From Phlyctochytrium arcticum (taxonomy: Eukaryota; Chytridiomycota; Chytridiomycetes; Chytridiales; Chytridiaceae): 64,000 nt of DNA. This document shows, piece after piece, positions 1,855 through 31,900 of this stretch (its first letter is position 1; every line of letters starts with the position of its first letter). The position numbers and the translations under genes were made by a program. The stretch is from the NCBI GenBank assembly GCA_025602905.1, contig JAHLKI010000005.1:496001-560000 (forward strand), given 5' to 3'. Under the pieces are notes generated by a model. It made no database searches and was not told the origin of the DNA. It worked only from the letters and a program-made list of their open reading frames with translations.

Positions 1855-2437
1855 CTTTCAACGAATTTACACTACAAGATCACTGCGTCGGCCGGGCTGC
1901 GTTGGACATCGTCATTTTGTGGCTTGACTTTGCGGCCGTCTGACCGTCAAAGTTCAAAATTCGACATCTCAAGCACGATGGCAAGACTTTCATTTCATTG
2001 TTTACATTCATCAGAAGTAAGGAATCGCACAAAAGAAATATTCAGCCAAGATAGAACCAAGCAACCGTAGTAGTCTTAGCGCCGGGTGAGTAAAGGCCGT
2101 GTTTTAATCTCGTTCGATGAAAAATTGTATCTTCTCACGGAGGAAGGGAGAAGCCACAGAGTGTTGCAAACTTTTGGGAAATGGACTCACGACTGCGACC
2201 AGCACCACACACAGATCTAGTACAACCGCACGCCTTGAGAATAAGGGCGGATGGATGTAGGAGACATGGCGGGCGAGAATCGAGATGCTGAGAGTGAAGC
2301 CGAGAGTGGATCTTGTTGCAACCCAAACAGAAAAACGAGATGCTTTTATAGCACCTGGGCGTGGCTTGGCAAAGTGGCGCCGGGTCGGAATTTAAAATTT
2401 CCCCACGGCAAAAATCAAAATGACACCTTCTCTTATA
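1855..2437. other. Intergenic region between CPS1-like gene and Fanzor element
   Basis: No convincing gene on either strand. On the minus strand a TATAAAA lies at 2350-2343, facing the carboxypeptidase but almost 500 bases from its ATG, so it would imply a long leader. Overlapping small open frames here look like chance. Confidence 0.5.
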
Positions 2438-2445
2438 TATCCTAG
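2438..2445. repeat. Left target-site duplication TATCCTAG
   Basis: The 8-mer TATCCTAG abuts the left terminal inverted repeat and recurs exactly at 4646-4653 next to the right one. Eight-base duplications are typical of hAT-type and some other cut-and-paste transposons. Confidence 0.85.
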
Positions 2446-2466
2446 CACCAATAGGAAAGTCCAGGA
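2446..2466 (+). repeat. Left terminal inverted repeat of Fanzor element
   Basis: Reads CACCAATAGG then AAAGTCCAGGA going inward. Its complement matches 4625-4645 at 17 of 21 positions. A second AAGTCCAGGA follows directly inside (to 2475), giving a short subterminal repeat of a kind that transposases often bind. Confidence 0.8.
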
Positions 2467-2601
2467 AGTCCAGGATTGTGAGCGGGATTTGGAGCGGCAA
2501 AATCCGGGACCTCGGGCAAACACGGGAAAGATCATCAGCGATGCCATAGCAACAAGCTTGAATGCAAGCTCCTCAATTTCCCACGCCCCCCCTTGTGCTG
2601 C

Positions 2602-2609
2602 TATAAAAG
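2602..2609 (+). promoter_or_regulatory. TATA box for the Fanzor gene
   Basis: TATAAAAG lies 56 bases upstream of the Fanzor ATG and inside the element, so the mobile unit carries its own core promoter. The same motif precedes several host genes in the window at similar distances. Confidence 0.65.
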
Positions 2610-2657
2610 GGTGGCCAGTGGACCAGCCCCCCGCGACAGCCCCGGTCGATTGCGCTG

Positions 2658-4561
2658 ATGAATACCGAAGAACAATCGTACGTCTGCACAAAAACTTCCT
2701 TTCGCAAAGCCTTCGCTTTTCCTCTCAACGAGGATTACTATCAGAAACTACGGACGCTAGTCAAATCCTGCCACGAACTCGTCATTCATGCCACCCATGT
2801 ATTCAAGCTCTACTACCTCCATCACGCGGATTACGAACCACACTATGGAGATGTTCCCAAAGTATCTTCTGTGATCCTGTATCTACTCAACGACGATTTC
2901 AACCCAAGATCTGCAGAAGACAAAGCGCTCGTCAGCGAGATGCGCTTCACAATCGCCCGATACCGCAAATTGGTCCCGACTTTTGAGCAACCGAGAATCC
3001 TCAATGTTCAGCAGCTGAATACCTATCTCTCACGCACTATGGCAACGAACGTGCTTGTCAATGTTCAGCAACACTTCAGCCAGATGGCTGCTCGCTATAT
3101 CAACCATGTATTGGGCGTGAAGAATGGGCTCAAGACACTTCGTGGGAATAAGGCAGCCCTTAAAACCTACCGAGCGCGGATTCGACACGTCAAAGAATTA
3201 TGCCTGAGGAAAAGCCACCCTGATCCACAATACACGCTTCTTCCAGTCGAAGAGGACCTCGTACAAGAGTTCGGATACATTCTACCCTACGATGAAGTTC
3301 AGGAGTACCCGCTGGCGTACAACCTTGTGGCTCAGACGCAAAGTTTCGTTCCAGCGTACTGTCGGCTGGCTGCGTGCCTCGAGGCACAGGGGTTTCCGTT
3401 ATTTTCGGCGCTTCCTCTCCGGCGGAAATTGAATGTCGCGCATCTCCCAATTGACACGAGAATTCTCTGCCTAAATTTACTGGGACGACCAGATCTTGTG
3501 AAGAATACGAGTTCAAACAGAGGGGATCTATGGGGGAATCTTTTTCGTCTGAGCTCCAAACCTTCAAGCCGCGAAAAGGATATCGCTTTGCCGGGCGGAT
3601 ATCAACAGATTGTACATCGGTTACGGTATATTTCGAGCCAGACGTTTATGATTCGAGTGGAAGGCCCAGAAAGGTGCGATCCAAAAAAAGAAAAAGACAG
3701 CGAGAGAAGCACAACGAGCGAGAGGGCGAGAAGCAATCATTGTATTTCGAAAACCATCTCCCTGTTATTACCAGCAGGACGAACTTTGTCGTAGCGGATC
3801 CAAATAAACGGGACCTTCTATACTGCCGTGATAACGACGGCAATCAGCTACGGTACACAAGCATGCAGCGAAGGTTGGAGACTAGAACAAAGAAGTACAC
3901 ACGGATTATAGATGGTATGAGAACCGAAGCCGGCGTTGCCGCCTGGGAAAGCATGCTTCCCCCTTCGAAAAGTATGAGTTTGGACTTCTTTGAGACTTAT
4001 CTCGAAGCGCGAAACGTCGTAGTGCCCAAGATCCAACCTTTCTACGACTTACCCATACACAACAAATTAAAATTCAACCGATACATCAATACTCAAAGGA
4101 GCGAACAAAAGTTTGTCACAAGATTTCGAAGAACATTTGGCAAGGATGCTGTCCTGATCCTGGGAGACTGGAGTGATGGAGGACACACCCTACGGTACAA
4201 TGAGCCTTCGAAAACAACGGGATGGCTCAGATATTTCAAACAACAAAAAATTGTATGCTACCTTATTGATGAGTTCAGAACTTCGAAACTCTGCCCTCAA
4301 TGCGAGCAAGTGGTGGAGCCGATGCTTTACCGCGACAGCCCGCGTCCGTGGATCCGACGAAAGTCCCCCAGGTGGGGATCGGGAGGGAAGAGATGGCGGG
4401 TGGTTCATGGACTGCTGGTTTGTCAAAATCTGAATTGTGCCAAGCAAGCTCGCAATATTTGGAACAGGGATGACATGAGTACGACAAACATGTTGAAAAT
4501 TGTGAATTCAGTTCTGGCTGGTGATGGGAGACCACAAAATTACAGCCGCAGCCATTCATAG
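2658..4561 (+). CDS. Fanzor1-type RNA-guided endonuclease (TnpB homologue), one frame change
   Basis: Eukaryotic relative of TnpB/Cas12: a RuvC-like nuclease guided by an RNA transcribed from the element's 3' end. The first part reads from ATG 2658 to about 3560. The second part, one frame back, reads from about 3563 to TAG 4559-4561; together they give about 635 residues, a usual Fanzor1 length. Signatures in order: IPIDTRILCLNLLG; FKPRKGYRF followed by ISTDCTSVTVYF; RuvC-I ADPNKRDLL (Asp codon 3797); RuvC-II IDEFRTSKLC (Glu codon 4271); a zinc finger starting CPQC and ending VCQNLNC; RuvC-III RDD..TTN (Asp codon 4469). All three catalytic acids are present. Conserved sequence lies on both sides of the frame change, so the simplest reading is a one-base loss near 3562, or an assembly error. 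Very short GT-AG introns (3498-3520 or 3547-3578) would also restore frame, but would be abnormally small and remove conserved residues. Confidence 0.88.
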
Positions 4562-4645
4562 TTTACTTAGATTACTCCTGGCCAGTTTACGCTGGTCATA
4601 TTCACGTTACATTAGAGACTTTTCTCCTGGACTTTTCTTCTGATG
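4562..4645 (+). ncRNA. Candidate Fanzor guide RNA (fRNA/omegaRNA) scaffold at right end
   Basis: The 84 bases between the Fanzor stop codon and the right element end form the place where Fanzor and TnpB elements encode their guide-RNA scaffold. A stem-loop is visible: TGGCCAG (4579-4585), loop TTTACG, CTGGTCA (4592-4598), seven pairs with one G-U. If the family rule holds, the RNA would start inside the coding end and the guide would be the flank from 4646 onward. Position and hairpin are seen; the RNA itself is inferred. Confidence 0.4.
4625..4645 (-). repeat. Right terminal inverted repeat of Fanzor element
   Basis: TCCTGGACTT then TTCTTCTGATG; reverse complement of the left repeat with four mismatches. 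A further AAAAGTC on the minus strand just inside mirrors the subterminal repeat on the left. Confidence 0.8.
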
Positions 4646-4653
4646 TATCCTAG
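4646..4653. repeat. Right target-site duplication TATCCTAG
   Basis: Exact copy of 2438-2445, immediately outside the right inverted repeat. It lies 45 bases beyond the stop codon of the minus-strand seven-TM gene. Confidence 0.85.
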
Positions 4654-4697
4654 CCTGAGGACTATCCTAAAGTAGATAAATCTAATAGAGGATCTAA

Positions 4698-5946
4698 CTA
4701 CTCATGGGCACTATTCCTATCCGTAATAAGAAAACACTGACTTGACCCTGATATCGACGATCCGATCCCGGACGTGGTTGCCAGATGGGTTCCAGTTCCA
4801 GAAGTTGGTGATAAAGACTCTTCCATCGCTCGAATATTTTTTGATGACGGTGTTCGTAACGGAGTAAGCCCGGCCGATGCCTGTGCCTTGTCTTGCAACT
4901 TTACGTTTTTTATGGCTTGCTCTATCTGGCGTTGGTTTTCGGCTGCTGTGGGTGCCGAGACCAATTCTTTGGCGTTGTAGATAAATACCTGCCTGATGGG
5001 TTAGTTATGTGAAATGGTATTTGAAGTAACATGAAATTACCAATGCACCCGAAAATTCGAGCGGTGTAAATGCATAACCCAATCGGAACACAAATGTGCG
5101 TACTGCGCTGTCGTGGGGAAAGGCCAGTGTCGAGATGGACAACAGCACAAGACAAAGCCACGTCACAACACATATAAAAATAAGTGAATAAACGACTTCC
5201 TTCCATTTCTTCTTCTTGGCTCCTCCGGCCGCCCGCCGACTCTTGTAGAGCTGATAAATAAAGGCAAAAGATAGGCTGTGGTCGATTAGGAGCGCATATA
5301 ATGTCCAAGCCGCGGTGGAGAGGGCTTGGAGGGTTGCGTTGTTGTCGTCCACTATAACTACACCCCAAAGAACTGAAAGTAACCAAGCCAGGCCGGTTAC
5401 GACGAGGAATGCTGTGTCCTATGCAAACTGTTCAATCAGTGTTTGATCCGAATGGGAGACCAAAAAGTATGTGATGCATACGTAGAGCTTGTTATACTGG
5501 TGAAGTGATTTGACCACCCGAAACCGGATTTGCACCAGGATAAGGTACATCAGAGTCGCTATACTGTAAGCGGCCGTCCACACCCGCTTCAATATTGCCA
5601 CATATCGAACATCCTCCAGCGCCGTAATCTGGGTTTCATCTTGAAGCCCAATAGCTGGCGCTGTCGACACTAAAGGAAAAAAGCAATAGGTTAACACCGT
5701 ATCTATTTTCTTGAGGTTTGCGGGAACATACTCATTAATGGGACAAAGGAGAGTGCGTATATCACCAGACAGATAAAGAGCGAAATGTTATATACAGTTG
5801 GCCGTCGGCGCGTATGTCGGAATCCATAGACTACATTGCCGGCCTGCAGCATAAACCCCGCAACTATAATCCTCTAGGTGAGATAACAATCATCCACATT
5901 GCAGAATGACAGCACATACGTGTGCAAACAGTAGTGGCAATAGCAT
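4698..5946 (-). CDS. Seven-transmembrane receptor-like protein, unknown ligand
   Basis: Five exons (5946-5920, 5873-5732, 5669-5482, 5418-5041, 4988-4698) join in frame with clean GT-AG introns and give 341 residues. The translation shows seven hydrophobic segments: MLLPLLFAH...AGFML, YNISLFICLVIYAL, AAYSIATLMYLILV, FLVVTGLAWLLSVLWGVVIV, AWTLYALLIDHSLSFAFIY, VVYSLIFICVVTWLCLVLL and RLGYAFTPLEFSGALVFIY. A basic loop (RRAAGGAKKKKWKE) lies before segment six, and a polar tail of about 80 residues rich in Ser, Thr and Gly ends the protein. This is the topology of G-protein-coupled receptors and of THH1/TOM1/TOM3 proteins, but no family motif is recognised. The start is the first ATG after an in-frame stop and gives a short first exon. 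Signalling is a guess from topology. Confidence 0.7.
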
Positions 5947-29457: not shown

Positions 29458-29596
29458 GGCCAAAAAAACGCAAAAAAAGATGTTCTCATCCAGGTTCGAA
29501 CTGGAGACCTTCTGCGTGTTAAGCAGATGTGATAACCAACTACACCATGAGAACCCGATATTTTCGGATTCAGACTTGCTTATATAAACAAACACC
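29458..29596 (-). repeat. Left arm of inverted tRNA-Val repeat
   Basis: Read on the minus strand this arm matches 31760-31900 over the tRNA (74 of 74), about 41 bases before it (GTTTATA..AGCAA...AAATATCG) with scattered changes, and the T-tract after it. So the copies arose by inverted duplication of the gene with its flanks. Confidence 0.7.
29481..29554 (-). tRNA. tRNA-Val (anticodon AAC)
   Basis: Full cloverleaf on the minus strand: acceptor stem GTTCTCA/TGAGAAC, anticodon stem TCTGC/GCAGA with loop TTAACAC (anticodon AAC), T arm CCAGTTCGAACCTGG containing the B box, discriminator A. A run of seven T follows two bases after the gene, a Pol III terminator. No intron. Identical to the copy at 31801. 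Confidence 0.95.
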
Positions 29597-31759: not shown

Positions 31760-31900
31760 GTCTTTGTTTATACAGGCAAATTTGAAATCTGAAATATCGA
31801 GTTCTCATGGTGTAGTTGGTTATCACATCTGCTTAACACGCAGAAGGTCTCCAGTTCGAACCTGGATGAGAACATCTTTTTTTGCCGTTTTTCCAAGCCG
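31760..31900 (+). repeat. Right arm of inverted tRNA-Val repeat
   Basis: Inverted partner of 29458-29596; see the finding on the tRNA bracket. The arms are about 2.2 kb apart. Confidence 0.7.
31801..31874 (+). tRNA. tRNA-Val (anticodon AAC), second copy
   Basis: Base-for-base identical to the gene at 29481-29554, in opposite orientation, with the same TCTTTTTTT terminator (T-run 31877-31883). Confidence 0.95.

Follow-up and report, generated by a model that had tools for sequence, protein, structure and literature searches.

A small, partly decayed Fanzor1 element of Phlyctochytrium arcticum, related in kind to SPu-1, and its apparent TATA|TA insertion sites

Described Fanzor elements and the FzA family

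The closest described counterpart of the element reported here is SPu-1 of Spizellomyces punctatus with its protein SpuFz1 (Bao & Jurka 2013, PMC3627910; Saito et al. 2023, PMC10432273). According to the latter paper, SpuFz1 works with a 75-nt 3′ scaffold and a 14-15 nt guide from the flank, cuts DNA after CATA at a cut distance of 16-21, and the natural role of Fanzor is given as open (PMC10432273). For other Fanzors, PMC10711439 proposes that the scaffold has taken up bases of the duplication. Two further groups are described in PMC3627910. The MuDr-like elements ROr-4, PBl-3, and MCi-4 resemble the present element as non-autonomous Fanzor1 elements with terminal inverted repeats (TIRs) from early-diverging fungi, but differ in their 9-bp duplications and in TIRs common to MuDr. 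The Chlamydomonas Helitron2 elements CRe-1, CRe-2, and CRe-3 resemble it in 5′-truncated copies with intact 3′ ends and variable duplications after a recurrent tetranucleotide, the duplications sitting directly after TTTT or T-rich tetranucleotides. They differ in their Helitron2 ends and introns, in having TTTT where the present element has TATA, in their many copies, and in that most truncated copies carry duplications.

The window, the whole stretch of 64,000 nucleotides that was analyzed (contig C5 of the chytrid fungus P. arcticum, positions 496001-560000; genome of 31.5 Mb in 91 contigs), holds a 2.2-kb Fanzor1 element at positions 2446-4645. Its family is called FzA here, and FzB and FzC are two further Fanzor families of the same genome. 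Like SPu-1, FzA is about 2.1-2.2 kb long, has one single-exon Fanzor1 ORF of 633/634 aa between TIRs and no transposase, and has a 3′-end RNA region beyond the stop codon, which in FzA is predicted. Compared with SPu-1, FzA differs in the TIRs (21 bp, 17/21 matching, versus 30-33 bp), in the motif (predicted TATA versus the CATA measured for SpuFz1, PMC10432273), and in abundance (5 right-end copies versus 42 Fanzor and 134 Fanzor-less loci in S. punctatus). In place of the putative TA duplication and the CA before the left repeat of SPu-1, duplications of 8 bp, or 10 bp in a truncated copy, and TATA were found. FzA is related in kind to SPu-1 and is not SPu-1 itself, and the window element is a real, precisely bounded, partly decayed representative of an already known kind of element.

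Boundaries, copies, and coding region

The following features delimit the window copy.

2434-2437, plus strand: TATA abutting the left duplication, predicted to be the motif for insertion and all or part of the target-adjacent motif (TAM); same position in the copies on C46 and C6 and in the right-end copy on C9
2438-2445, plus strand: left copy of the duplication TATCCTAG, read directly
2446-2466, plus strand: left TIR, 17/21 against the right end; homology of the C46 and C6 copies ends at 2446
4625-4645, minus strand: right TIR and fixed element end, 17/21 against the left end, from comparison of the copies
4646-4653, plus strand: right copy of the duplication TATCCTAG, read directly

The bases 2446-2466 and 4645-4625 match at 17 of 21 positions, with a run of 11, and the termini read CACC...GATG. 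The direct repeat actually comprises 9 letters, TATCCTAGC, as C stands at 2446 and again at 4654. The whole window was scanned for 8-bp direct repeats 0.5-6 kb apart that enclose an inverted repeat of at least 15/21. Two places were returned, the Fanzor element (17/21) and an inverted tRNA-Val gene pair (21/21), and among five mononucleotide shuffles of the window none reached 17/21, a single shuffle giving the highest match of 16/21, which argues that the structure of the element did not arise by chance. The tRNA-Val (AAC) genes are located 2.2 kb apart at 29481-29554 (minus strand) and 31801-31874 (plus strand).

FzA copies at about 98% are present on contigs C46 (whole), C51 (first 50 bases missing), and C6 (split by a 3,363-base insertion), and a further copy on C9 (C9:775k) consists of the right end only, the left end being absent. 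In C46 and C6, the two other copies that retain a left end, homology ended at 2446. The right end is kept in four other copies, with C51, C6, and C9 matching through 4645 and sharing beyond it 4, 2, and 3 flank letters with the window, respectively, which are the target TA/TAT; the C46 copy diverges at base 4645 itself. The earlier note, which had described a complete Fanzor transposon with ends readable to the base, is borne out as to the ends, with the 17/21 TIRs, the 11-base run, TATCCTAG on both sides, and other copies that stop there, but not as to the Fanzor gene, which is frameshifted. Its further statements that the unit lacks a transposase and lies between genes also hold. The Fanzor gene occupies 2658-4561 and leaves 212 and 84 bases on its two sides, hence no space for a transposase gene; a Peptidase_M20 gene lies on one side of the element and ORFs without Pfam match on the other.

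Four further relatives were found on C18, C35, C26, and C9:70xxxx, with matching pieces 55-76% identical, and short fragments turned up on C34 and twice on C24. Among viral contigs, the search with an alignment of seven sequences gave 14 pattern stretches and no relatives. The relative on C18 (L012:4746-6915) sits in another kind of element, whose inverted repeat is 23 bp long and perfect, and TAAAATA occurs directly left of the repeats and 5 bases right of them. The insertion that splits the C6 copy (L011:2441-5803, 3,363 bp) has inverted ends of the AACCCGGTTTTT type and contains an ORF of 680 aa that matches nothing in Pfam.

The Fanzor gene of the window was read in two parts.

2658-3794, plus strand: first part of the interrupted Fanzor1 frame, with its ATG at 2658; 96% protein identity to residues 1-313 of the C46 protein
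3455-4561, plus strand: Fanzor1 gene, 3′ part in another frame, stop at 4559-4561; RuvC motifs DPNKRD, DEFRTS, zinc ribbon, RDD

The overlapping ORFs 2607-3794 and 3455-4561 lie in different frames, and comparison with three other copies places the break at one single-base frameshift about halfway along. An active nuclease is probably not made from the window copy. The sole unbroken full-length copy of FzA, on C46 (L009:3144-5048), has an open frame of 634 aa with Asp at the position of the SpuFz1 catalytic RuvC Glu541, where the window, C51, and C6 copies have Glu. The frame of the C51 copy is open only from about residue 10, and that of the C6 copy enters the insert after about residue 624; thus, completeness and a canonical active site do not coincide in any of the four copies. 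The nearest solved relative of the C46 protein is SpuFz1 (S. punctatus Fanzor 8gkh; residues 8-632, E 1.4e-122, identity 247/601 aligned residues), and the RuvC residues D383/N385/D606 are kept. The family accordingly has the features of Fanzor1, namely RuvC D...E...D, a C4 zinc ribbon, and full-length homology to a solved Fanzor1, with D at E541 in C46. The Pfam scan gave a sub-threshold zinc-ribbon match in the window and no match for the C46 protein, for which PF26935 is listed in the protein database. FzA was nonetheless under selection, as judged from the comparison with the C18 relative (pN 0.20, pS 0.88, 389 codons) and from five comparisons among FzA copies (omega 0.20-0.61, each on few changes).

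Insertion sites and the predicted guide RNA

TATA was found directly before the duplication, or before its expected place, in all four informative left flanks (window, C46, C6, and C9), and its distance to the left end was constant at 8 bases in 3/3 copies. The C51 copy, which has lost its left end and has neither TATA nor a duplication at the break, is uninformative and was excluded from this count. For comparison, TATATA occurs at a frequency of 3.1e-4 per base in the window and seven loci of the same genome (124.5 kb, both strands). Right flanks began with TA in 16 of 18 cases overall (FzA 4/5, FzB 7/7, FzC 5/6). The insertion sites of FzA would accordingly read TATA|TA.

The duplications varied. 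Among the three FzA copies with an intact left end, the window copy has the 8-bp duplication, and no matching duplication was found in C46 (left TATAGTCC versus right AATCCAAA) or C6 (left TATGGACC versus right TAAGATGG), so the window copy is the one source of the 8-bp value. The right-end copy on C9 has an exact 10-bp duplication, reading GTATATA[TATTCACTTG]AACTC on the left and GATG[TATTCACTTG]CGCAAC on the right. That duplications were lost through flanks exchanged among C46, C6, and C51 was rejected, as by eye no left flank matched the right flank of another copy. TA as the duplication, in the style of SPu-1, was also rejected, as it leaves the other six identical bases of the window unexplained.

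Two features at the right end were predicted.

4562-4647, plus strand: predicted omegaRNA scaffold of roughly the final 75-86 nt, flank TA included, from 3′ conservation, stems, and a position as in SpuFz1 (PMC10432273)
4648-4661, plus strand: predicted guide of about 14 nt, which follows TA in the right flank, modeled on SpuFz1 (same source)

Between the window and the C9 copy, 68/69 bases were identical at 4577-4645 and 14/15 at 4562-4576, compared with 45/57 in the stretch before the stop, a count of aligned bases that leaves insertions in C9 uncounted. The right end folds into two predicted stems with a moderate z of about -2.3 against shuffles, and the second stem pairs the flank bases 4646-4647 with 4608-4609. 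The corresponding values were -0.54 for the C18 relative and -0.01 for FzC, no better than shuffles, and -5.5 for FzB, whose right end did beat them. Rfam at gathering thresholds gave no match in window positions 2300-4900. With TA counted in the scaffold, the predicted guide begins at 4648 and the motif of the empty site becomes TATA. Among the six residues with which SpuFz1 reads CATA according to PMC10432273, R96, Q129, and Q130 are kept, and N133 is replaced by T, R291 by D, and Y345 by S; the three changes would fit TATA rather than CATA. The omegaRNA, guide, cleavage, and homing of FzA are inferred. In the genome, no second place like the predicted empty site was found at 0-1 mismatches besides the flank of the element itself, and the 32 matches to the predicted target at up to 3 mismatches were not above the reversed-pattern control (39).

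The window unit is probably a non-autonomous relative of SPu-1 that uses TATA|TA sites, has its predicted guide in the right flank, and was moved in trans, a reading built on the ends, the copies, the broken frame, the right-end conservation, the TATA|TA rule, and the varying duplication length as they appear in the sequence. Positions 2446-4645 would belong to a small Fanzor1 family that is non-autonomous and resembles SPu-1 in kind; this copy would carry the nuclease gene alone and a right-end RNA scaffold for Fanzor, and the host sequence on its right would supply the guide. The likely target-adjacent motif would be the TATA that precedes the left duplication, and the uninserted allele, TATA followed by TATCCTAGCCTGAGG..., the matching target, the predicted empty site reading TATATATCCTAGCCTGAGG once. 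Outside machinery acting in trans would join the right end at TATA|TA and leave a duplication of variable length, in a manner unlike hAT elements.

Mobility of FzA and origin of its duplications

FzB is a multi-copy Fanzor1 family (L034 on C1, L035 on C31, L036 on C9:778k, L038 on C21, L050 on C16, and L051 on C2), and its protein is nearer to SpuFz1 (E 2.4e-162) than the FzA protein. The left end begins with TCTATACTATAATG after GATA in four of the five full left ends and after CATA in the fifth, and the right end has a hairpin and then CTTG|TA. FzB retains a C-terminal piece of a helicase. Several genomic relatives of this piece lie about 3 kb downstream of Helitron_like_N on the same strand (e.g., on C4, C17, C44, and C20), which identifies FzB as a Helitron derivative. 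No exact duplication of at least 7 bp from the right end was found in four FzB copies with both ends and flanks, a 2-bp TA duplication being indistinguishable from a duplication-free ATA|TA insertion. The 5′-shortened copy L036 has a 12-bp duplication after TATA, TATA[TACAATTAGAAT], and the shortened copies L059 (C3) and L060 (C20) have no exact duplication of at least 7 bp.

The third Fanzor1 family, FzC, has six copies (loci L041, L043-L047, L057, and L058). Its right end is CTTG, followed by TA in 5/6, and the two copies compared there share about 3 kb more upstream DNA, diverging at a short tandem repeat.

The earlier note had proposed a hAT-like superfamily from the length of the duplication. 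Cut-and-paste movement in trans by a hAT-like or other 8-bp-duplicating DDE transposase would suit the exact 8-bp duplication and TIRs of the window copy and the constant spacing from TATA, and the hAT dimerisation domain is matched 15 times in the genome, but the assignment did not withstand comparison of the copies. The C9 copy has its own exact 10-bp duplication without a left end, a product that two-ended cut-and-paste does not make, and a two-ended DDE transposase of fixed duplication length therefore does not explain it; the 8-bp duplication is present in only one of the three left-end copies, and the target is the recurrent TATA|TA, not random. Nor was a transposase inside, a hAT element with these ends, or the suggested autonomous partner found: the ungapped genome search with up to 3 mismatches per 21-bp end, which misses gapped or more diverged ends and missed the left end of C46 through a 1-base gap, gave 2 and 5 places, all of them FzA's own copies. 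Such a transposase is very improbable as the mover, and duplication length alone is poor ground for assigning elements of this sort to a transposase family. Rolling-circle Helitron machinery moving FzA in trans by one end is a less remote but still unlikely source. The genome contains 101 whole and partial matches to Helitron_like_N, and FzB, as a Helitron derivative, has an ATA|TA target as in FzA and a 5′-truncated copy with a 12-bp duplication. Helitrons start with TC, end with CTRR, have a 3′ hairpin, and insert at A|T without duplication. FzA instead has CACC...GATG ends without TC...CTRR, true TIRs, a duplication, and no strong hairpin at the 3′ tip. In PMC3627910, the Fanzor Helitrons of Chlamydomonas behave like FzB, but full-length Helitron insertions are given without duplication.

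The 5′-truncated copies with duplications could also stem from abortive Fanzor homing by cut-and-copy, which is tentative and seems rather doubtful. The cut by Fanzor would fall shortly inside the target on the empty allele. The right flank would then invade the donor and the element would be copied leftwards; copying would stop early and the end would be joined to the TAM-side stub, which would look like a target duplication. The C9 copy, with TATA[TATTCACTTG], a truncated element, and an intact right end, and likewise L036 of FzB fit this. In both, which are Fanzor elements of different types in one genome, the duplication starts right after TATA, and its lengths of 10 and 12 stay within the distance of 16-21 at which SpuFz1 cuts (PMC10432273). 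In Chlamydomonas, according to PMC3627910, duplications of about 7-19 bp after TTTT flank 70%, 57%, and 10% of three Fanzor Helitron families and 1/200 in a Fanzor-less Helitron family. The fit of C9 and L036 to this pattern, with another motif, raised the reading of the duplications as scars. Against it, one-ended transposition or target-primed insertion yields the same picture, and some Chlamydomonas duplications are far longer, at 44-443 bp (PMC3627910). The pattern was seen in 2/5 of the 5′-truncated copies here, and L059, L060, and C51, without an exact duplication of at least 7 bp, speak against its being general. That the variable duplications of truncated Fanzor copies are scars of Fanzor cutting rather than transposase-made is accordingly judged unlikely.

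For the preferred reading, a non-autonomous SPu-1 relative moved in trans, the TATA|TA rule is the interesting part of the case. The copies in the genome suggest that insertion is tied to a TATA motif, which Fanzor itself may read. TATA may instead reflect what the machinery of transposition prefers rather than a motif of Fanzor. A link between a Fanzor motif and the start of a duplication was not found described in the one open library that was searched. If the scar reading were true, the duplication-after-TAM rule would be the trace that Fanzor-driven cut-and-copy leaves in eukaryotic genomes, and the flanks of an element would suffice to read the TAM of its Fanzor from sequence alone. In this genome, with several Fanzor families whose ends are readable, the insertion site, the TAM-like motif, and the duplication line up, and such an alignment makes the idea that Fanzor aids the copying of its transposon testable.
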